29,254 bases of DNA, taken from positions 1 through 29,254 of IMG/VR virus record IMGVR_UViG_3300037961_002018; one strand, 5' to 3'. Below are positions 3,974 to 29,254 of the stretch, one piece after another (the stretch's first letter is position 1; every line of letters begins with the position of its first letter). The notes below the pieces were generated by a model. It saw only the letters and a program-made list of their open reading frames with translations, was not told the origin of the DNA and made no database searches. This DNA comes from a virus. The position numbers and the translations under genes are program-made.

Positions 3974-4484
3974 CGGTGTTGAGTGGATTAATAGCAGTGG
4001 GCATTTTACCCAAGGTTTAAAAACTGCACAAAACACTGCTATGACTGGTACAGGCTCGATGACCACTAATACGGCGGCTGTTGGAACCTTTGGTACTAGT
4101 CGTAACACCGTAGGTAGTGTTACGCTTGGTGTTGCTTATGATGGTTCGCCTACTTATAGTGCAACCGCTTTAAACACTTTTCAGTTTGCCGCTGGTGTCC
4201 CCGGTGGTTGGACTATTGCAGGGATAGAACCCTATGGTTCAGGTAGCCCGGGTTCTACTATAAGGGATATGGTCGATATGAATTTCAGTTATGGCGCTTA
4301 TCCATTTTACGATAGTAATTGGCGGTTAGCTCAGGGTTGGTGGGGTGGCAGCTCACATTTATCAGGGCAAACCCAAAACTCAGATTATGTTAGAAATTTT
4401 TCTGGAACTTGGAGTGTTTATTCCCCCGGATCGGAACGAGGTTCTAGCTATTGGCCTAGCAATATATACATGAGGATTGCGTAA
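3957..4484 (+). CDS. Small fibre-tip protein, family member 1 of 3 (175 aa)
   Basis: It starts MGFQVNGVEWINSSGHF, inside the last 17 nt of the S74 fibre gene. The N-terminal ~35 residues (FQVNG, then a short loop and GTGSM) are shared with the next two genes, and all three end in the pattern aromatic/Leu-x-R-I-(A/S), here IYMRIA. The middle is Gly/Ser/Trp-rich and differs from its neighbours. I do not recognise a catalytic site. Shared ends with a variable middle suggest alternative receptor-binding tips or fibre subunits on one attachment point. The TAATG overlap with the following gene suggests coupled translation. Confidence 0.65.
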   Translation: MGFQVNGVEWINSSGHFTQGLKTAQNTAMTGTGSMTTNTAAVGTFGTSRNTVGSVTLGVAYDGSPTYSATALNTFQFAAGVPGGWTIAGIEPYGSGSPGSTIRDMVDMNFSYGAYPFYDSNWRLAQGWWGGSSHLSGQTQNSDYVRNFSGTWSVYSPGSERGSSYWPSNIYMRIA

Positions 4485-7023: not shown

Positions 7024-8151
7024 ATGAGTACTGCCGAAGAAGTTACAAAAATTAGTGACAGGGCAGGAACAGGTGCGGTCAACTTTTCTAATGGTTTCAA
7101 TGTAAACGGTTCTGACAGTGGCATCTCAAGCTTCACGCACACAGAGGGAGCAAATGAACCAAGTAGTCCTAGCAATGGGGACACATGGTGGGATAGCGAT
7201 AATGATATATACAAAGTATATATGAATAACGAATGGAAAGACTGGTTAGGAACCTCCACTCCTGCATTTGGTTGGGGCGGTGATAGAGGGATTACCGCAG
7301 CGGGAGATGGCGCAAGCACTTATAATACTATCGACTATTTTGATATAACTTCAGCAGGTAATGCGACTGATTTTGGTGACACATCGAGCGGCGCTAATAA
7401 AGTAGCAGCTATAAGCAATGCTTCAAGAATAGTTATTGGTAGTTTGCCGCCAAGTAACACACAGACTTTAGAATATATTACATCTTCTACAACAGGAAAC
7501 ACTACAGACTTTGGTGATCTAGTACAAGGGATGAGTTATTGCGGTGCGGTTAGCAATGGAACTAGAGGAGTTTGGGGCAGCAAATCGAACAGTGGAGCTA
7601 TGGAATACATTACTATAGCCAACACAGGTAATGCTACATCTTTTGGGTCTTTAGATTCTTCGAATTATTTTGCTAATAATGGCCCCGCTTGCGGTAGTGA
7701 TGGAAGTAGAGGACTATTTGCAGGTAACGGTAATGGGTCTAGTATCACAAACGAGATTCAATACATAACAATAGATACAACAGGAAACGCTACTAATTTT
7801 GGTACTCTAACTACTACATGGAGAGATTTTTATGGGTTTCAAAAAGTCTCCGATGCCACAAGAACAGTTTTTGGTGGAGGTTTGTCTACAGGAGGTAGCA
7901 ATAATACTATAGACTATGTTACAACTGGAACTACAGGAAACGCTACAGATTTTGGAGACATGACTACTGGAGTAAGAGGTTGCACAGGTACATCTAACGG
8001 CACTGTTGGTGTTTGGATGGGAGGATATACTTCTACTACTGTAAACACTATTCAGTCTGTAACTATACAAACACCCGCAAATGCTGCGGATTTTGGCGAC
8101 TTAACTGTTGCAAGGTATGAAAACGCAGGATCATCAGGAGCCGCATCATGA
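7024..8151 (+). CDS. Kelch-repeat tail fibre, predicted six-bladed propeller, copy C (375 aa)
   Basis: The N-terminal ~76 residues (SDRAGTGAVNFSNGF, GSDSGISSFTHTEGA, EPSSPSNGDTWWDSDND) are almost identical in protein to copy D. Six repeats follow with motifs such as SAGNATDFGDT, TTGNTTDFGDL, NTGNATSFGSL and TPANAADFGDL. The protein ends NAGSSGAAS. It starts three bases after the stop of copy B and overlaps copy D by ATGA. The conserved anchor and variable blades fit a set of receptor-binding tips sharing one docking site; this is inference. Confidence 0.75.
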   Translation: MSTAEEVTKISDRAGTGAVNFSNGFNVNGSDSGISSFTHTEGANEPSSPSNGDTWWDSDNDIYKVYMNNEWKDWLGTSTPAFGWGGDRGITAAGDGASTYNTIDYFDITSAGNATDFGDTSSGANKVAAISNASRIVIGSLPPSNTQTLEYITSSTTGNTTDFGDLVQGMSYCGAVSNGTRGVWGSKSNSGAMEYITIANTGNATSFGSLDSSNYFANNGPACGSDGSRGLFAGNGNGSSITNEIQYITIDTTGNATNFGTLTTTWRDFYGFQKVSDATRTVFGGGLSTGGSNNTIDYVTTGTTGNATDFGDMTTGVRGCTGTSNGTVGVWMGGYTSTTVNTIQSVTIQTPANAADFGDLTVARYENAGSSGAAS

Positions 8152-9269
8152 GTGAATTCCTAAAAGTTACAAAACTTAGCGATAGAGCAGGTACTGGCGC
8201 TGTTAATTTTTCTAACGGTTTTAACATAAACGGTTCTGATAGCGGTATTTCAAGCTTTACACATACAGAAGGAGCTACCGAGCCTAGCAGCCCATCCAAC
8301 GGAGATACTTGGTGGGATAGTGATAATGACATCTATAAAGTCTACATGAATAATGAGTGGAAAGACTGGCTTGGAGCTACTGCTCCCACTAGTAATGCTT
8401 GGAGTGGTGATAGGGGTGTTATCACTGGTGAAAGTTTTACAAACTACGAAATTCAATATTTTAACATAGCTTCAACAAGCAACGCAGCAGATTTTGGTAA
8501 TCTTAGTGTAACTAGGGGTTTTAAGCTAGGTTCTTGCGGTTCTAGTACTAGAGGTACTTTTGCGGGAGGTTACGCTAGTAGTGCAAGAAGAGATGAAATA
8601 GATTATATTACACATTCCACAACAGGTAACGCCACGGACTTTGGAAATCTTGCTACAGCAAGGTCTTATGGGGGTGGTTGTGCTAACGGAACAATAGGGC
8701 TTTATGCGGGCGGGATAAATGCTTCATCAAGCTATGTAAACACAGTAGAGTCTTTCACGATAGCCAACACAGGAAACGCTGCGGATTTCGGAGACCTGTC
8801 AAGCGCTAATTATGGTAGATTAGGGTCTGGCAATGATGCGACTAGAGCTGTGTTTGGAGGGGGGAGAAGTGGGGGAACCTCAAATACAATAGATTATTTT
8901 ACCTTTGCTTCAGCAGGAAACGCTACAGATTTTGGAGACTTCTTATCAACTCAGCAGGATCTGCAAGGCTGTTCGGATGCAACCAGAATAGTTTTTGGTG
9001 GTAACGCAGGAGGATCAAATGTGCTTCAATATCTTACAACGCAAAGCGCAGGAAATGCTACAGATTTTGGTGATCTTACAGTAAATTTAGATGGAGCCGC
9101 AGGTGTGGCAAACTTAACAAAAGGAGTTTTTGCAGGGGGTATTACGCCTAGCAACCCTGCTAATAACTTAGAAATCATAACGATCCAGACCACAGGAAAC
9201 GCTACTGATCATGGAGACCTTGCAGAAGCACAGTCTTATCCTGTAGCTTGTTCAGGAGCGGCATCTTAA
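8148..9269 (+). CDS. Kelch-repeat tail fibre, predicted six-bladed propeller, copy D (373 aa)
   Basis: The N-terminal anchor (KLSDRAGTGAVNFSNGF to MNNEWKDWLG) matches copy C almost residue for residue, but the DNA differs at most synonymous sites. Six repeats follow (STSNAADFGNL, TTGNATDFGNL, NTGNAADFGDL, SAGNATDFGDF, SAGNATDFGDL, TTGNATDHGDL) and the protein ends VACSGAAS. The blade loops differ from those of copy C. The gene overlaps copy C by ATGA and is followed by an AGGAG for the next gene. The last repeat has DHGDL in place of DFGDL, as also seen in copy B. Confidence 0.75.
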   Translation: MSEFLKVTKLSDRAGTGAVNFSNGFNINGSDSGISSFTHTEGATEPSSPSNGDTWWDSDNDIYKVYMNNEWKDWLGATAPTSNAWSGDRGVITGESFTNYEIQYFNIASTSNAADFGNLSVTRGFKLGSCGSSTRGTFAGGYASSARRDEIDYITHSTTGNATDFGNLATARSYGGGCANGTIGLYAGGINASSSYVNTVESFTIANTGNAADFGDLSSANYGRLGSGNDATRAVFGGGRSGGTSNTIDYFTFASAGNATDFGDFLSTQQDLQGCSDATRIVFGGNAGGSNVLQYLTTQSAGNATDFGDLTVNLDGAAGVANLTKGVFAGGITPSNPANNLEIITIQTTGNATDHGDLAEAQSYPVACSGAAS

Positions 9270-20829: not shown

Positions 20830-21275
20830 AAGATGTAAGAACAGGATTAATGTTTTCTCCAGTTCCTACTGAATTTGTTGATGTTGTTTGGCCTAAAGTG
20901 TCTGAGATAATGGAGCGGTCAGTAAAGACTGCAGAAGGAAAGTACAAAGTAGAAGATCTTTATCCTGAAATTATGGATAATCAGATTGTCTTATGGATTG
21001 TTGCTGATCACGATAGGGATGACGAGATTATAGCTGCAATTACCACCAGATTAATAGAATATCCGCAAGGAAACTCTATGGCTATGGATTGGATTGGTGG
21101 TAAAAGAATGAAAGACTGGTTGCCTATGGCGCAAGAATCTATTTCTCGCTATGCTAGAGACCATAAATGTAAGTATTTAGAAGGCTATGGAAGAAAAGGT
21201 TGGGATCGTTGGCTTAGAAAGTACGGGTGGAAGCCAGACTATATCGCCTATAAAATGGAGTTAAACTATGGGTAA
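20826..21275 (+). CDS. GNAT-fold-like phage protein, gp13-like (149 aa)
   Basis: The layout is that of a small GNAT-type (acetyltransferase fold) protein common in podovirus-like phages: WPKVSEIMERSVKTAEGK, then strands (QIVLWIVADHDRDDEIIAAI, TTRLIEYPQGNSMAMDWIGG), a helix (ESISRYARDHKCKYLEGYGR) and the ending GWDRWLRKYGWKPDYIAYKM. T7 gp13-like proteins occupy this place in other phages. I see no clear acetyl-CoA pyrophosphate loop (R/QxxGxG/A), so catalysis is doubtful and a structural or assembly role is more likely. It overlaps the previous gene by ATGA and the next by 8 nt. Confidence 0.65.
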   Translation: MKDVRTGLMFSPVPTEFVDVVWPKVSEIMERSVKTAEGKYKVEDLYPEIMDNQIVLWIVADHDRDDEIIAAITTRLIEYPQGNSMAMDWIGGKRMKDWLPMAQESISRYARDHKCKYLEGYGRKGWDRWLRKYGWKPDYIAYKMELNYG

Positions 21276-22131
21276 GGGTAATAAGCAGGTAAAAGCGGGA
21301 GAACAGACGGTAATTAATTCATTACCTGATTACGCTCGTCCATACTTTGAGAACCTTATGGAACGTGCTGAGGCAGAATCTTTACAAGGATATCAGCCTT
21401 ATCAGGGTCAAAGAATAGCTGAATCTGGCAGCATAGCTGACATAGCTAACTCAAGAAATATGGTCAGGGGGATAGCAAATCAGGGTATGCCTGAGACAGA
21501 AGAGGCCATAGGAGGTATTAGAGACCTAGCCCAACGCGGTCAGTTTACTGGTCAAACTGCTCAAGACTACATGAACCCTTACATGGAGCAGGTTGTAGAC
21601 AGGCAGAAACAATCTGCAATACAAGATTTTAATCGTATGGGCGCAGCTAGAAATGCTCAAGCTGTAAACGCAGGTGCATTTGGCGGGTCTAGAGCAGCAG
21701 TTGCTGATTATCTTGCTCAAGAAGGGCTACAAGATCAATTAGCTGATATTGACGCTACAGGCAGGGAAGCTGCTTTTAGGGATGCTAGAGCAGGTTTTGA
21801 TGCTGATAGGCAGATGGGAATGCAGGGTCTTGGTCAGTTGGCACAGCTTGGAAGTGCTAGAAGAGCAGGTGACATACAAGGCGCACAATTGCTAGAGGGC
21901 ATAGGAAAAACACAGCTTGGAGAGCAACAAGCAGGTTTAGACATAGGCTATCAGGACTTTTTAGGTCAGCAAAACTTCAACAAAGACCAGTTGGGTTTCT
22001 TTTCTAACATGCTTCAAGGTGTTCCTGTTAGGCCGAATACACAACAGGCAACTTTTCAGCCTTACAATCCTCTGCAACAAGCTCTTGGCGCAGGGATAAC
22101 GGGTCTAAGTCTATATCGTGGGTTAACATAA
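21268..22131 (+). CDS. Internal virion/ejection protein (287 aa)
   Basis: Mostly helical and Gln/Ala/Gly-rich. Recognisable segments are PDYARPYFENLMERAEAES, DYMNPYMEQVVDRQKQSA, the conserved QAVNAGAFGGSRAAVADYL and repeated helical units with AGxQGAQLLEGIGKTQLGEQ. The C-terminus is FQPYNPLQQALGAGITG. The pattern is common to internal virion proteins of marine and T7-like phages (gp14-like position), which leave the capsid and help form a channel across the host envelope. It starts within the last 8 nt of the previous gene and ends in TAATG with the next. Confidence 0.7.
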   Translation: MGKGNKQVKAGEQTVINSLPDYARPYFENLMERAEAESLQGYQPYQGQRIAESGSIADIANSRNMVRGIANQGMPETEEAIGGIRDLAQRGQFTGQTAQDYMNPYMEQVVDRQKQSAIQDFNRMGAARNAQAVNAGAFGGSRAAVADYLAQEGLQDQLADIDATGREAAFRDARAGFDADRQMGMQGLGQLAQLGSARRAGDIQGAQLLEGIGKTQLGEQQAGLDIGYQDFLGQQNFNKDQLGFFSNMLQGVPVRPNTQQATFQPYNPLQQALGAGITGLSLYRGLT

Positions 22132-24058: not shown

Positions 24059-27000
24059 ATGGGCGTTATCCAACAAAAAGGTCAATTCTCAGGTAAATCA
24101 TACTCAATTCAAATAGCAGGTGATACGCCAACTCCTGTAGAACAACAAAAGATAGACAGCTATCTTACACAACAAGAACAGCCTTACAAACAATCTTACG
24201 AATACTATTTTGGTCAAAGGACTAATGAGGACGTTCCTCAAGAAGTGCCTATTCAAGAAGAGGGTGGTTTTAGAAGGGCTGTAGGCGCAGGTGTTGATCA
24301 GCTTCAAATAGCATATGGCTCAAGTTTAGAAGGCTTGGGTAAAGTTACTGGTCTAGAAGGCTTAGAAAATTATGGCTCTGATGTTGTTGAAAAGAACGAA
24401 CAAGAGTTTCAAGAAAAAGCTGCAGGTTTTACGAGATTAGATGATGCCGATAGTTTCGGTGATTATATTAAATTTTACACGGAAACTCTCGGTCAGCAAC
24501 TTCCAAACCTTGGTTCTACATTAGCGGGTTCTGGCGCAGGTGCATTGGCAGGTTCTGCTTTTGGCCCTGTAGGAACTTTTGTTGGCGGTATAGCAGGTGG
24601 TATGGCTGCTAATATTCCTTATTTTTATGGAGATAATAGGGAAGCTCAAAAGGAAGCAATGGAGAGAGGTCTTCGAACAGAAATGAACGAAGGCGCAGCT
24701 TTCCTTTATTCTATTCCTCAAGCATCTTTGGATTTAATTGTAGATAGATTGCTCGTTGGCGGCATTCTTCCAAAATCATTTGGCACTTCTGGTGCAATAT
24801 TTACCCGTGGAGTTAAAGGCGTAGCTATTGGTAATGTCGTAGAGATTCCTACAGAGATTGGTCAAGAGGTCTTAAATAGATACCAAGCAGGTCTTTCTAT
24901 TGCTGATGAGGAAGCTTTAAGAGTTTATAGAGATGTAGCTATAGCTGCAGGTCTTGTTGGTGGTACTGTTCGCGGTGGTACTAATATAATTGCAGGTGAC
25001 CAAAGGGTCAGGGATAAAAATAAAGAAGAACAGGAAAAAATTCGACAGCTTCAAGAAGATCAAGAAGAAGCAAGACAAAGAGCATTACTAAAGAAACAAG
25101 AAATAAACAAATCAAAAGCAATGATCGATGAAGATCTTGTAGAAGATGTTGAAGAAAAGCAGAGAAAATTAGAAGAAAAACAAGCGGAAGTAAGAAGATT
25201 AGCAGGGGTTGAAGAACAACCTCTGCAGCTTGGAGTAATGGCTCCACCACCTGATAACAATAGGCTCTCTCCTGAAGAAGAGAAGATGGCTCTTTTACAG
25301 GCAGCTAGAGAGACAACACTGCCACTTATACCAGTAGAGCTGTCAACTTTGCCTTTAGATGAACAGGTAAGAATTAGAAGCTCTCGCAGAGCGCAAGGCG
25401 TAGATACCACAACACCTGCTTCGATAGATGAAATAAGAAGAGTTTTAGGTGAAGACGTAGCTGATAGAGAAGTTAGGAAACAAAAACCTCTAGGGGGCGG
25501 TGCAGCACACTTTGGCCCGATTAGCGGTAAAAGCTTTACACAATCACAATATGACCGTGCCGTACAGGAGATTAAGGCTCAGAAGAAATACACTTTCAAT
25601 GCTGTGCAGAAAGCTTTGAAGGCTACAGGCCTTAACAGAGTACCAAGGCAAATGGTTCTCGATGTCAGAGATGAGATGGTAAACCGTGGGATACTTCGTA
25701 AGTCTGATAGAGTTAGAACTGGTTACGTTGTTGAGGCAGACATTGAATCATCTTTTGACGAGGCGGCATCATACAGAAAAACCGTCAATGATATCAGGAC
25801 GTTATTAGACGGAGAAAGAACTGCTAAGAAAAAAGCAGAGAATGAAACTGATGAAGAGTTTCAGTCTAGAAAACTAGGATTAAGATCTTACAGAAGAAAG
25901 CTTCTTGAGGATGCTCGAAGAGCGCAACAGGTAGAGGGCAATGTAAGAAAAGCTCGACAGTTAAATGCTAAGGCTGATGCTCTTGAGGGCGAGATAGCTA
26001 GAGCAGAAAAGACTGTTACAGACTTAGAAAAGAAGATTGAGACAAGCCCTCAAGGTCAGGCAATACCTGCCACAGAAAGACCAAAGGTACTATCATCTGA
26101 TGAGAAGCAAGCAATCGGAAGCCAAGAGACAACTCAAGGACAAAGAGAAGCCCTTCAAACTAGCGTTAATAACAGAAAAGCGGAGCTTGATGAAAAACGC
26201 AAAATGCTTCGTAGGTTAAAAGCTAGAAAAGCACCTAGACCTCAAGTTGATCAGGTTGCAATAAGAGAACTTGAGAATGACATAGAAAGATTAAAATACT
26301 TTATTAAGTCTGCTCAGTCTAAGATAGATGCTCCATCATCTCCAGTGCAGGTTGCTCCAGAGGCCAAGCAAGCCAAGACAGCTAGAACAGTCGCTGATCT
26401 GGCACTAAACAGAAGAAAGAGTGATGTCTTTACAGCTAAAGAGCAGCAGGTATTTAACGCTTTAAGAAAGCGTCTTACAAGGCTTGGTCTTAGAGATGTT
26501 AATCTGACTGTAGAAAAAACTCTTGCTAGAACTGTAAACATCAATGGTCAAAATGTTCATGTAGACCCAGAAGGTCAGTTTGATGCTAAGGATGGCAATA
26601 GAATTATATCTTTAGCAATGGAGGCTGTTGACCCTAACGCAACAGCGCAGGAGCAGTTCGATGCCCTAAAAGGTATAATGAACCATGAGGTTATACACGC
26701 TCTTAAAAATCTTGGCTTATTTACAAAACAGGAATACGCATCATTAGTAAAAGCTGCCAAAGCTAAAAAGTATGTTGCTATAAAAGATGGTGTGCCAACC
26801 GAAAGAAAGTATTCTTACTACGACAGAGCAAGATCTATGTATGAAGGCATAGGTGCATCTGAGGCAACCATAGAAGAAGAAGCAGTAGCAGAGCTATTTA
26901 GAGACTATGCAGATAATAAGATTAAACTATCTGGCAAGCCTCGAACACTCATGCAGCGCATCAAAGATTTCTTTGTTGGTATAGTTAAAGGCAACAATGA

Positions 27001-29254
27001 TGTAGGTATATCTAGTGTAGAAGACATATTCGATAACATAAGAAGTGGGAACATAGGGGCTAGAGGCATCATCTCATCTGAGAAGCGGCCTTTCCAAATG
27101 ATTTTAAATAGAGACTTTGGAGACCCAGAAGGTGACGTTGAATCTCAGTCGTTAGCCTTCTCACTTAAGAACTTCACTCCTAAGCTTCCGTTTGCTCCAG
27201 ATGGCGCAAGAGCGCACAAGCTCCCACATCAATTATTGATAGAGGGATCAGGCAGACCAGAAACCATACAGGTTACTCAAAAGTATACCAGAGGTAATGC
27301 CGAAAGAAATAATAGTTCAATTGAACAAATTTTAGAGCAGCATCCAAACGCTACAGATTCTGTGCAAAATTGGATGGACGCAATGCAAGATGCTTTTGGT
27401 GGTGAATACATTCCTGCTCCACCGTTGGTTGCTATACAGTATAGCTCTTCTCCTGAAGCTATGGCTGAGAAGCTTAAAGATTTAACACCAGAGCTGAGAA
27501 AAGGTGTAGATGAAGGCTTTAAGCATGTAAAAGATCTTCAGAACATATATAGCAGTGGTAATGCCACACCTCGAATGACCCTAGATTTATTTATATGGGG
27601 AATACTTTCAAGAGGTGCGGGGCCAGTTCAGCAAGAGTCAGCATATATAGATATAATTGATCAAGCCCACCCATTATTAGAAAAAGCTGCTCGTGAACCA
27701 TTGACAGAAGACGACCTTGATCGATGGATGCTTGAAGTTTCTACATCAATTCCTGAAGGGTCACCCGGTAAACAAGTTACTATGAACGTAAATGCAGCAG
27801 CAAAACTAGTTTCTGCAATGTCACAAATGGTTCCTAATACAAACAGAACAACTCTTGATTTAGTTCACGAACAAATGATAGACGCAAATGTTTCAGCATC
27901 TGATATAAGAGAAACATTTCTTGCAAATACAGAGGGCGCAGGAATAGATAACAAAGTGTTATCTTTTATCCTTCTTGTTGCAGGTAAAGATGATGTTCTC
28001 GTTATGGATAGAATACAAGGCAGACATCTGTGGGATGATGGCAGATATGGTGGTTCTAATATTTATGATGGTATAGGGCCAAATAATGAAGGTCTTAACG
28101 GAATATTTAGAGGCCCAAGGGGTATTCTTGTCACTCGTATGCTTGAGAATGGTATGCGTAAAAATATTGATAAAGCTTACGAACTTGTCGGCAGACCACA
28201 AGACGCTTCTCTTGGCAGATTTCATTGGGAGACTTGGGTTATCGAGGGAGAGCAAGTTGTTAACCACGGCTCTCTAAAAGCGATCATAGACAGAACCACT
28301 GTTGGAACTAGGGTGACGGAAGGTAAAACAGATACATTTTCTTCAAACATGACTTACATGAGAGGACTGAATGCTACTGTTGTAGAGTATCCTTTGTCAG
28401 ATGGTGATGTGGTTTATATGACGCCTCAGACATTTAAAGATTTTACTAATGAAATGTCTAATGATGCCAAAAAGAAAAACTCTAAAACAGGTATATTTAA
28501 ACAAGGTAATTTTAAAGTAAGTTCAAGAGCCGACATCCCTTGGTTTGAAAGGGTGGATGAAATAGACAGAGGCTCTATAGATAAATTAGCAAGGGAGTAT
28601 GAAGATGCAAAACCCAATGGCTCAGTTCTTAGAAGCGATGAGAGGACTGGAAAAAACAAGGACGCCTCTAGAAGAGGGAACTCAGACCTCGACAGAAGAT
28701 ACAGCCTCGGCTTCCTCACAACAACAGACACAGAAAGACTCCTCAAAGAAAAGCAATTAAAGGTTCGAAGGGACGAAAAGATTGGAGGCTTAAAAGGGTT
28801 TATACAAAATAATCCTGATGGCTTTACAATAAGCCCAGAAACAATGGAGCCAGTGTCTGGTGGCTTTGTTGTTGCCCCATTAAAAGAAGCAGAGATTATA
28901 GTTGGTCAAGAATTACCTGAGCAGGTTTTGATTGATTATATTGAGGATAACAAGGCGATAGCAGAGGCCACTGGGAGAGATGTTTATCTTGGTGGTTGGT
29001 TCGATACTGAATCAAACCAATATTTCTTAGACAATACCCTTATAGTAGACAGTAAGGAAGAAGCATTGTATATTGCTGAAGCGTCAGAGCAGTTAGCAAT
29101 ATTTGATTTAAATACATTCGAAGAGGTCAGAACAAATGACGGAATCTCAGAACTCAAACAAAGTGGTGCTTACAAAAGTGACACCGCAATCGGATACAAA
29201 AGAAACGCTGAAGAAATTGGTAGACGCTTTGCAGAAGCAAGGGATCAACGTAAT
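24059..29254 (+). CDS. Giant polyvalent-type virion protein with HExxH motif (3' partial, 1732 codons seen)
   Basis: One frame runs without a stop from ATG 24059 (AGG 8 nt upstream) to the window end. N-terminal region: GFRRAVGAGVDQLQIAYGSS and a glycine-zipper hydrophobic stretch near residues 158-185 (GSGAGALAGSAFGPVGTFVG). Coiled coils lie near 320-385 and 600-760. A zinc-metallopeptidase motif H876-E-V-I-H880 is followed ~60 residues later by an EEEAVAEL helix that could give the third ligand (E940/E941). A domain near 1300 reads ILLVAGKDDVLVMDRIQGRH. At ~1588-1700 is a unit typical of phage large polyvalent proteins (FVVAPLKEAE, DVYLGGWFD, EQLAIFDLNTF). It is probably ejected with the DNA to modify the host; the domain names are from memory. 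Confidence 0.8.
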   Translation, partial: MGVIQQKGQFSGKSYSIQIAGDTPTPVEQQKIDSYLTQQEQPYKQSYEYYFGQRTNEDVPQEVPIQEEGGFRRAVGAGVDQLQIAYGSSLEGLGKVTGLEGLENYGSDVVEKNEQEFQEKAAGFTRLDDADSFGDYIKFYTETLGQQLPNLGSTLAGSGAGALAGSAFGPVGTFVGGIAGGMAANIPYFYGDNREAQKEAMERGLRTEMNEGAAFLYSIPQASLDLIVDRLLVGGILPKSFGTSGAIFTRGVKGVAIGNVVEIPTEIGQEVLNRYQAGLSIADEEALRVYRDVAIAAGLVGGTVRGGTNIIAGDQRVRDKNKEEQEKIRQLQEDQEEARQRALLKKQEINKSKAMIDEDLVEDVEEKQRKLEEKQAEVRRLAGVEEQPLQLGVMAPPPDNNRLSPEEEKMALLQAARETTLPLIPVELSTLPLDEQVRIRSSRRAQGVDTTTPASIDEIRRVLGEDVADREVRKQKPLGGGAAHFGPISGKSFTQSQYDRAVQEIKAQKKYTFNAVQKALKATGLNRVPRQMVLDVRDEMVNRGILRKSDRVRTGYVVEADIESSFDEAASYRKTVNDIRTLLDGERTAKKKAENETDEEFQSRKLGLRSYRRKLLEDARRAQQVEGNVRKARQLNAKADALEGEIARAEKTVTDLEKKIETSPQGQAIPATERPKVLSSDEKQAIGSQETTQGQREALQTSVNNRKAELDEKRKMLRRLKARKAPRPQVDQVAIRELENDIERLKYFIKSAQSKIDAPSSPVQVAPEAKQAKTARTVADLALNRRKSDVFTAKEQQVFNALRKRLTRLGLRDVNLTVEKTLARTVNINGQNVHVDPEGQFDAKDGNRIISLAMEAVDPNATAQEQFDALKGIMNHEVIHALKNLGLFTKQEYASLVKAAKAKKYVAIKDGVPTERKYSYYDRARSMYEGIGASEATIEEEAVAELFRDYADNKIKLSGKPRTLMQRIKDFFVGIVKGNNDVGISSVEDIFDNIRSGNIGARGIISSEKRPFQMILNRDFGDPEGDVESQSLAFSLKNFTPKLPFAPDGARAHKLPHQLLIEGSGRPETIQVTQKYTRGNAERNNSSIEQILEQHPNATDSVQNWMDAMQDAFGGEYIPAPPLVAIQYSSSPEAMAEKLKDLTPELRKGVDEGFKHVKDLQNIYSSGNATPRMTLDLFIWGILSRGAGPVQQESAYIDIIDQAHPLLEKAAREPLTEDDLDRWMLEVSTSIPEGSPGKQVTMNVNAAAKLVSAMSQMVPNTNRTTLDLVHEQMIDANVSASDIRETFLANTEGAGIDNKVLSFILLVAGKDDVLVMDRIQGRHLWDDGRYGGSNIYDGIGPNNEGLNGIFRGPRGILVTRMLENGMRKNIDKAYELVGRPQDASLGRFHWETWVIEGEQVVNHGSLKAIIDRTTVGTRVTEGKTDTFSSNMTYMRGLNATVVEYPLSDGDVVYMTPQTFKDFTNEMSNDAKKKNSKTGIFKQGNFKVSSRADIPWFERVDEIDRGSIDKLAREYEDAKPNGSVLRSDERTGKNKDASRRGNSDLDRRYSLGFLTTTDTERLLKEKQLKVRRDEKIGGLKGFIQNNPDGFTISPETMEPVSGGFVVAPLKEAEIIVGQELPEQVLIDYIEDNKAIAEATGRDVYLGGWFDTESNQYFLDNTLIVDSKEEALYIAEASEQLAIFDLNTFEEVRTNDGISELKQSGAYKSDTAIGYKRNAEEIGRRFAEARDQRN
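27315..27326. repeat. Palindrome GTTCAATTGAAC inside a CDS (copy 4 of 4)
   Basis: A perfect 12-bp palindrome in the giant gene, read as N-S-S-I-E-Q-I. It shares the 16-mer AGTTCAATTGAACAAA with copy 3 although the surrounding proteins are unrelated. Confidence 0.7.
28605..28760 (+). CDS. Out-of-frame ORF nested in the giant gene (51 aa)
   Basis: An ATG at 28605 with AAGGGAG 7 nt upstream opens a 51-residue frame, MQNPMAQFLEAMRGLEKTRT onward, with a Ser/Thr/Gln-rich tail ending KKSN. It is a helical start with a hydrophilic tail. In the same stretch the giant gene's own codons become unusual: I count five CTC leucine codons in about 52 codons against roughly seven in the ~1,500 codons before, and many C-ending codons. 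That is what constraint from a second frame would look like. The main frame there is a charged, low-complexity linker, which would tolerate overprinting. No known family. Confidence 0.4.
   Translation: MQNPMAQFLEAMRGLEKTRTPLEEGTQTSTEDTASASSQQQTQKDSSKKSN
29136..29254 (+). CDS. Second out-of-frame ORF at the window end (3' partial)
   Basis: An ATG at 29136, with AAGAGG 9 nt upstream, opens a frame that runs off the window: MTESQNSNKVVLTKVTPQSD, then KETLKKLVDALQKQGINV. It looks like an ordinary protein N-terminus with an amphipathic helix. The giant gene stays open in its own frame over the same bases (DGISELKQSGAY, AEEIGRRFAEAR). Either the giant gene ends soon after the window and this is the next gene with a long overlap, or it is a nested gene. 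Both this ORF and the one at 28605 lie in the same frame relative to the giant gene. Confidence 0.45.
   Translation, partial: MTESQNSNKVVLTKVTPQSDTKETLKKLVDALQKQGINV

Follow-up and report, generated by a model that had tools for sequence, protein, structure and literature searches.

Among described systems, the Rz/Rz1 spanins offer the closest parallel to the gene arrangement reported here: a small gene in the +1 frame lies in the gene of its larger partner, overlapped by it or embedded in it, separated genes being the third architecture of the system, and the two partners form a complex (PMC6139136). According to a proposal in section 11 of the same paper, a neighbouring pair could become an embedded one when the upstream stop is lost; the paper reports not having found overlapped and embedded members together in any spanin family. 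PMC2268670 counts the loss of a stop codon that separates contiguous genes among the origins of overlaps. The locus described here resembles Rz/Rz1 in that a small +1-frame phage gene lies over a larger gene, in overlapped and in embedded arrangements, and differs in that a single family holds members of both kinds. No sequence relation to the spanins is claimed, the partnership is in our case one that we infer, and no lipoprotein, lipobox or transmembrane signals were seen by eye in the small peptides.

Two further likenesses concern the larger gene. It resembles the phage polyvalent proteins described by Iyer et al. 2017 (PMC5512222), in being a many-domain giant protein encoded beside virion and ejection genes, with domain exchange at the junctions. 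The words glycosylase and overlap are absent from the main text of that paper, and a search lying mostly outside the subscription literature turned up nothing published on genes nested in polyvalent proteins; the nested genes and the glycosylase domain appear to be additions to what is known of these proteins. One of the domains resembles the OGG2 8-oxoguanine DNA glycosylase/lyases (T. maritima Tm1821 and MjOgg) in its fold and in a putative catalytic Lys/Asp pair. Unlike them, it carries extra N- and C-terminal parts, it is only 14-18% identical to four OGG2 chains, and its activity is putative.

The giant gene and its glycosylase-fold domain

The stretch analysed (hereafter the window) is a virus record of 29,254 bases, and the features of its giant gene and surroundings are as follows.

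21268..22131, + strand: gene matching a PHROG DNA ejection protein (phrog_4287, E 3.2e-15)
24059..29254, + strand: giant ORF of the multidomain, polyvalent type, still open where the window ends; 1732 aa of it lie in the window
27182..28648, + strand: domain 1, OGG2-type HhH-GPD DNA glycosylase fold (AF2 model, PDB 3n0u)
27953..28009, + strand: putative catalytic Lys (27953-27955) and Asp (28007-28009), by alignment to MjOgg

In its N-terminal part the giant protein gave a match to a PHROG family of virion structural proteins, and the gene similar to DNA ejection proteins stands two places upstream. Given these two matches, packaging of the giant protein in the virion and its ejection from there are plausible.

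Domain 1 gave no match in Pfam or PHROGs, and its hits in the viral library were two uncharacterised proteins of uncultured Caudovirales (E about 1e-30). Its nature emerges from the predicted structure. AF2, run on 50 sequences, models 27182-28672 at a pLDDT of 93.7, with order ending at about 28648, and the model aligns with PDB 3n0u over 205 residues (Z 15.8, rmsd 3.0). In a helical domain such as this one Z values below about 13 mean little; the OGG2 structures score 14.8-15.8 and the next rows 10.7, so the model has the fold of an HhH-GPD glycosylase of the OGG2 type. The K258 and D276 columns are invariant across the 50 rows, and these residues align with the GIGYK..DDVAIID stretch of MjOgg, whose Lys and Asp we take to be its catalytic residues. 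Since the sequence match to MjOgg is weak (E 0.9), the case for a glycosylase rests on fold and motif together. Domain 1 is thus modelled as an OGG2-type DNA glycosylase with putative catalytic Lys and Asp, which adds a fold to a host domain that the initial annotation had left unnamed. Elsewhere in the giant protein, a [FY]SL motif recurs near the borders of domains (at 27158 and 28700 in the window, and at residues 1033, 1547, 1785 and 1952 in the relative L003), where it is possibly a linker or a processing site.

The small gene at the end of domain 1

Over the extreme end of the domain 1 fold and the disordered, low-confidence tail that follows it lies a second reading frame.

28592..28597, + strand: Shine-Dalgarno-like AGGGAG, 7 nt before ATG 28605, within giant-frame Arg-Glu codons
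28605..28760 (stop included), + strand: nested small gene 1, 51 aa, starting MQNPMAQFLEAMRGLEKTRTPLEEG, in the +1 frame relative to the giant ORF
28632..28673, + strand: conserved small-gene motif, EAMRGLEKTRTPLE in the window, family pattern ALxGLxxVxTPL

The initial annotation, made from the window sequence, had proposed here an overprinted gene of 51 residues with a good ribosome site, a plausible helical product, and a burst of CTC and other C-ending codons in the main frame. The ORF is present on the + strand in the +1 frame, as proposed, and the codon burst turns out to be the strongest anomaly of the giant gene: 19/51 giant-frame codons end in C over 28605-28760, compared with 213/1680 in the rest of the gene (Fisher p 1.2e-5), CTC accounts for 5/51 against 8/1680 elsewhere, and the nested stretch is the top window of the whole giant gene for C at third positions. 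When the giant frame is synonymously recoded, the 51-codon +1 stretch stays free of stops in just 204 of 5000 recodings. The prediction of a helical protein holds for about the first 20 residues, judged by eye from their helix-forming composition, and fails for the remainder, which is rich in S, T, Q and K and looks disordered. Neither Pfam nor PHROGs gave a match to the window peptide; the small proteins of three relatives have none in PHROGs and a single weak Pfam match under its cut-off. The small gene is previously unannotated.

Short as it is, and placed where the giant protein has a low-confidence tail, the ORF might be open by chance alone, in a linker rich in C; the relatives argue against this almost conclusively. 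A scan that took the final portion of the giant protein as its query retrieved 13 loci, and one with the domain alignment 72 viral loci and one genome locus. Their +1 frame at the domain end has a common layout, a variable and often K/S/T/Q-rich start followed by ALxGLxxVxTPL and then by a variable tail, and it is conserved even in relatives without the giant frame there. Some of the tails carry a further motif, the last residues of which are EEMGF or REMGY; longer small genes (L047, L055, L056, L058, L066, L069-L072 and L164-L167) show it as a C-terminal LTxEExxxxMxxxGF/Y before the stop. A profile trained only on 16 sequences, in each of which the upstream frame ended before TPL, recovered 34/39 held-out small ORFs at E <= 2e-4 and the window peptide at E 4.4e-9. 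Run over all loci, it gave one match per locus in 62/73 (the 16 training sequences included), at the 3' end of the upstream domain. These counts contain many near-copies, as 52 anchored rows reduce to 43 distinct ones. The chance ORF was rejected on these held-out matches and on the recoding controls described below.

The 11 loci missed by the profile (L077-L087) are all at most 37% identical to the query. Two of them, L080 and L085, end before the nested region, and the nine that reach it lie beyond the detection of the profile. Four of the latter (L078, L081, L083 and L084) have a nested peptide conserved among themselves: at about 30-33% identity to the window, L078 and L081 match one another better than 3000/3000 recodings, and their peptides do not resemble that of the core family above recoded controls. 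The L087 peptide resembles a core member better than 3000/3000 recodings, L077 has a similar ORF, judged by eye, and no convincing nested ORF was seen in the region in L079, L082 and L086. Homologues in annotated phages were found neither by blastn nor by tblastn with domain 1 and two remote relatives as queries, and a longer query gave three weak matches, to the C-terminal region. Free-standing copies of the small gene were absent from two scans of viral_contigs, whose sensitivity is limited, as 16/22 and 120/145 of their pattern matches were unconfirmed as relatives.

In the homologues, then, the second frame is open and conserved, and stops, which the initial annotation had named as grounds for giving the gene up, do not interrupt it in any close homologue. 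What does come and go is the upstream frame. On a quick tree of 44 domain sequences, 41 of them scored for this character, 19/41 have an upstream frame that continues across the small gene and 22/41 one that stops near or within it, and well-supported branches force at least three changes of state, although the counts carry no information on the direction of change. In 13/41 representatives the upstream frame stops before TPL, three of them (L043, L049 and L073) having the stop before the whole motif, and the small peptide persists there. Because the peptide is kept in both states, it is not explicable as a by-product of the giant frame, and the sequences of the relatives indicate that the giant frame, not the small gene, is the variable part at this site. 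The term overprinted thus survives in one sense only: the gene seems real, under selection and equipped with initiation signals, but it is not a young overprint. Origin de novo inside the giant frame was rejected, the nested frame being found throughout the family core and the host frame being missing over TPL in those 13/41. The remote L078, L081, L083 and L084 also have the nested frame, in forms of their own. From these comparisons the small gene is very probably an old companion of the glycosylase domain, fully embedded where the upstream frame runs on.

Selection on both frames and initiation of translation

If both frames are translated, the giant frame should show reduced synonymous variation over the nested stretch, as the initial annotation expected, and it does. 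Between the window and L003, 0/35 usable overlap codons carry a synonymous change, compared with 28% overall, and the overlap sits in the longest run without change (53 usable codons; the next has 22). In a set of nine divergent run-through sequences, synonymous change falls from 0.53 in the domain to 0.23 in the overlap and is down to 0.05 over 28640-28669, in the conserved motif; four disjoint pairs repeat the fall, from 0.47 to 0.17. The comparison of the window with L002 was set aside as evidence of selection, as its low synonymous change extends from 28489 to the window end. Divergence between these two drops abruptly at about 28489, and the stretch may reflect a recent exchange.

Long stretches without synonymous change are also seen between L002 and L003 where no long alternative frame is apparent (L003:7179-7356, 4302-4443 and 8121-8238). 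Such runs alone are therefore little proof, and more weight is put on the shift between codon positions. In the 36 pairs from the nine sequences, which are not independent, giant-frame substitutions at positions 1, 2 and 3 number 3244/1767/8183 in the domain and 266/110/248 in the overlap, so that the share of the third position goes from 62% to 40%. The recoding controls agree. The similarity of the window peptide to the profile was unmatched by 20,000/20,000 synonymous recodings of the giant frame, in pairwise scoring the peptide beats 5000/5000, and of 13 other run-through core loci 12 were equalled by 0/2000 recodings and L045 by 1/2000. Shift and controls together indicate that the nested frame is under selection of its own, over and above the selection on the giant frame.

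Low synonymous change could also have a source at the domain junction other than a coded peptide, such as an RNA structure, a regulatory DNA element or a joint left by recombination. The runs without nested ORF in the L002-L003 pair would fit, and so would the position at a domain end, which is a junction joining differing downstream domains. Against such an element, the peptide persists where the upstream frame is gone, it beats synonymous recodings, and the substitutions that do occur fall on the wobble position of the peptide; we consider this explanation very improbable.

The signals for initiation are likewise present in the sequence. The ribosome site claimed for the gene, AGGGAG at its proper spacing upstream of ATG 28605, is kept in 8/9 run-through sequences compared (L029 has TGGAG instead), and the ATG itself in 9/9. 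The alternative ATG 28599 is not conserved, being ATC in L018 and TTG in L021. Across the family, a Shine-Dalgarno match of at least 4 nt accompanies the start in 45/54 representatives, against 252/1080 control windows, and in the remaining 9/54 the match is a weak one of 3 nt only. Several start positions recur across lineages, with the Shine-Dalgarno site mostly inside giant-frame codons: TAAGGAG or AAGGAG precedes GGTATG in L054-L060, AGGAG lies upstream of the ATG in L064 and L069-L073, and in L045 the site reads AAGGAGGT. In L164-L167 a short upstream start is closed by a stop and a new start follows downstream, the former looking like a fossil start.

These starts bear on another explanation, namely that ribosomes reach the +1 ORF by a programmed +1 frameshift, in which case it would encode a different C-terminus for the giant protein and no separate product. 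Every such ORF is in the +1 frame and sits at the domain end, a shift at or before an early upstream stop would append the conserved peptide to the glycosylase, and linkage to a single domain would be equally fitting. However, the start codons relocate between lineages together with properly spaced Shine-Dalgarno sites, and this, with the closed upstream start and downstream restart of L164-L167, favours independent initiation over frameshifting. The +1 frame of the window also has a stop four codons upstream of ATG 28599, and no shared slip site was noticed, albeit in the course of a non-systematic inspection. Frameshifting is thus improbable, if less so than an RNA or DNA element, and we regard it as highly probable that 28605-28760 is a real small gene with an initiation site of its own, lying in the +1 frame across the 3' end of the region that codes for the glycosylase domain.

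A second nested gene and the possible role of the small proteins

Further along the giant gene the arrangement is repeated.

28748..29251, + strand: domain 2 of the giant protein, a confident model (pLDDT 93.2)
29122..29126, + strand: AGAGG, Shine-Dalgarno-like, 9 nt before ATG 29136
29136..29254, + strand: nested small gene 2, running off the window, in the +1 frame, starting MTESQNSNKVVLTKVTPQSDTKETLKKLVDALQKQGINV

The fold of domain 2 found no clear match in the PDB by Foldseek. Small gene 2 overlies its last helices and what lies beyond them, and is complete in the relative L002 (L002:2782-2937), where it encodes 51 aa. Most of nine relatives have GAGGAG or a similar sequence upstream, and the peptide recurs in relatives down to about 38-41% main-frame identity. 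In the nine, giant-frame synonymous change is 0.48 before the small gene, 0.09 inside and 0.47 after it, a stronger depletion than over small gene 1. These sequence comparisons make it another conserved +1 gene, here over the end of domain 2. The two peptides are unlike, and since the HMMs of small gene 1 do not match small gene 2, the two are not detectably related. In L132-L135, the +1 frame at the end of distant relatives of domain 2 contains another peptide, GYWDLxEEERLAxAxxI..L, that looks conserved.

What the first small gene does can be approached through the company it keeps. Relatives have it either overlapping the tail of the glycosylase gene or placed after the stop of that gene; in the lineage of the window and in others the upstream frame continues through it into further domains and so embeds it fully. 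Ribosomes initiating on the giant mRNA at ATG 28605 would make a product of about 50 aa consisting of a short helix, the TPL motif and a polar tail. We infer, by analogy with the Rz/Rz1 spanin pair, that this small protein may work together with the glycosylase domain, its likeliest role being that of a binding partner or an inhibitor; as an inhibitor it would hold the enzyme in a harmless state up to the packaging and ejection of the giant protein. Such a partner role, perhaps that of an inhibitor, is the weakest step of the account, and we propose it tentatively.

A role as passenger has to be set beside it: the small gene could be real and have nothing to do with the glycosylase, its start falling near the domain end by coincidence and its product being, say, an independent virion or regulatory peptide. 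Small overlapping genes are frequent in phages, which pack their genes closely, and a second, unlike +1 gene lies over a domain of different fold. On the other hand, when the small gene by itself served as query, the glycosylase domain stood upstream in 25/25 of the loci retrieved, and the link holds across divergent phages while the downstream sequence changes. An unrelated passenger is a serious possibility, though we would not bet on it, and our guess is that it and the partner role are about equally likely.

Should the small protein be a partner of the glycosylase domain after all, a broader picture may be drawn, which we offer as speculation that is rather unlikely to hold in full: each module of a polyvalent protein would bring its own small +1 partner gene over its 3' end, and fusion of modules would embed these partners, which would still be translated. 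If so, the window would offer two instances, small gene 1 over the glycosylase domain and small gene 2 over domain 2, and one giant mRNA would encode an ejected multi-enzyme protein along with its small partners, be they inhibitors or packaging helpers.

In conclusion, two unannotated families of small proteins and a glycosylase-fold domain are added to the giant proteins of phages. With one family found in both the overlapped and the embedded state, the route between neighbouring and nested genes becomes readable from sequences, as gain or loss of the upstream stop accompanied by re-sited start codons. Other giant phage genes may conceal small genes at the ends of their domains in the same way, and, if the small proteins do regulate the ejected enzymes, they would illustrate the way in which a phage manages the weapons it carries.
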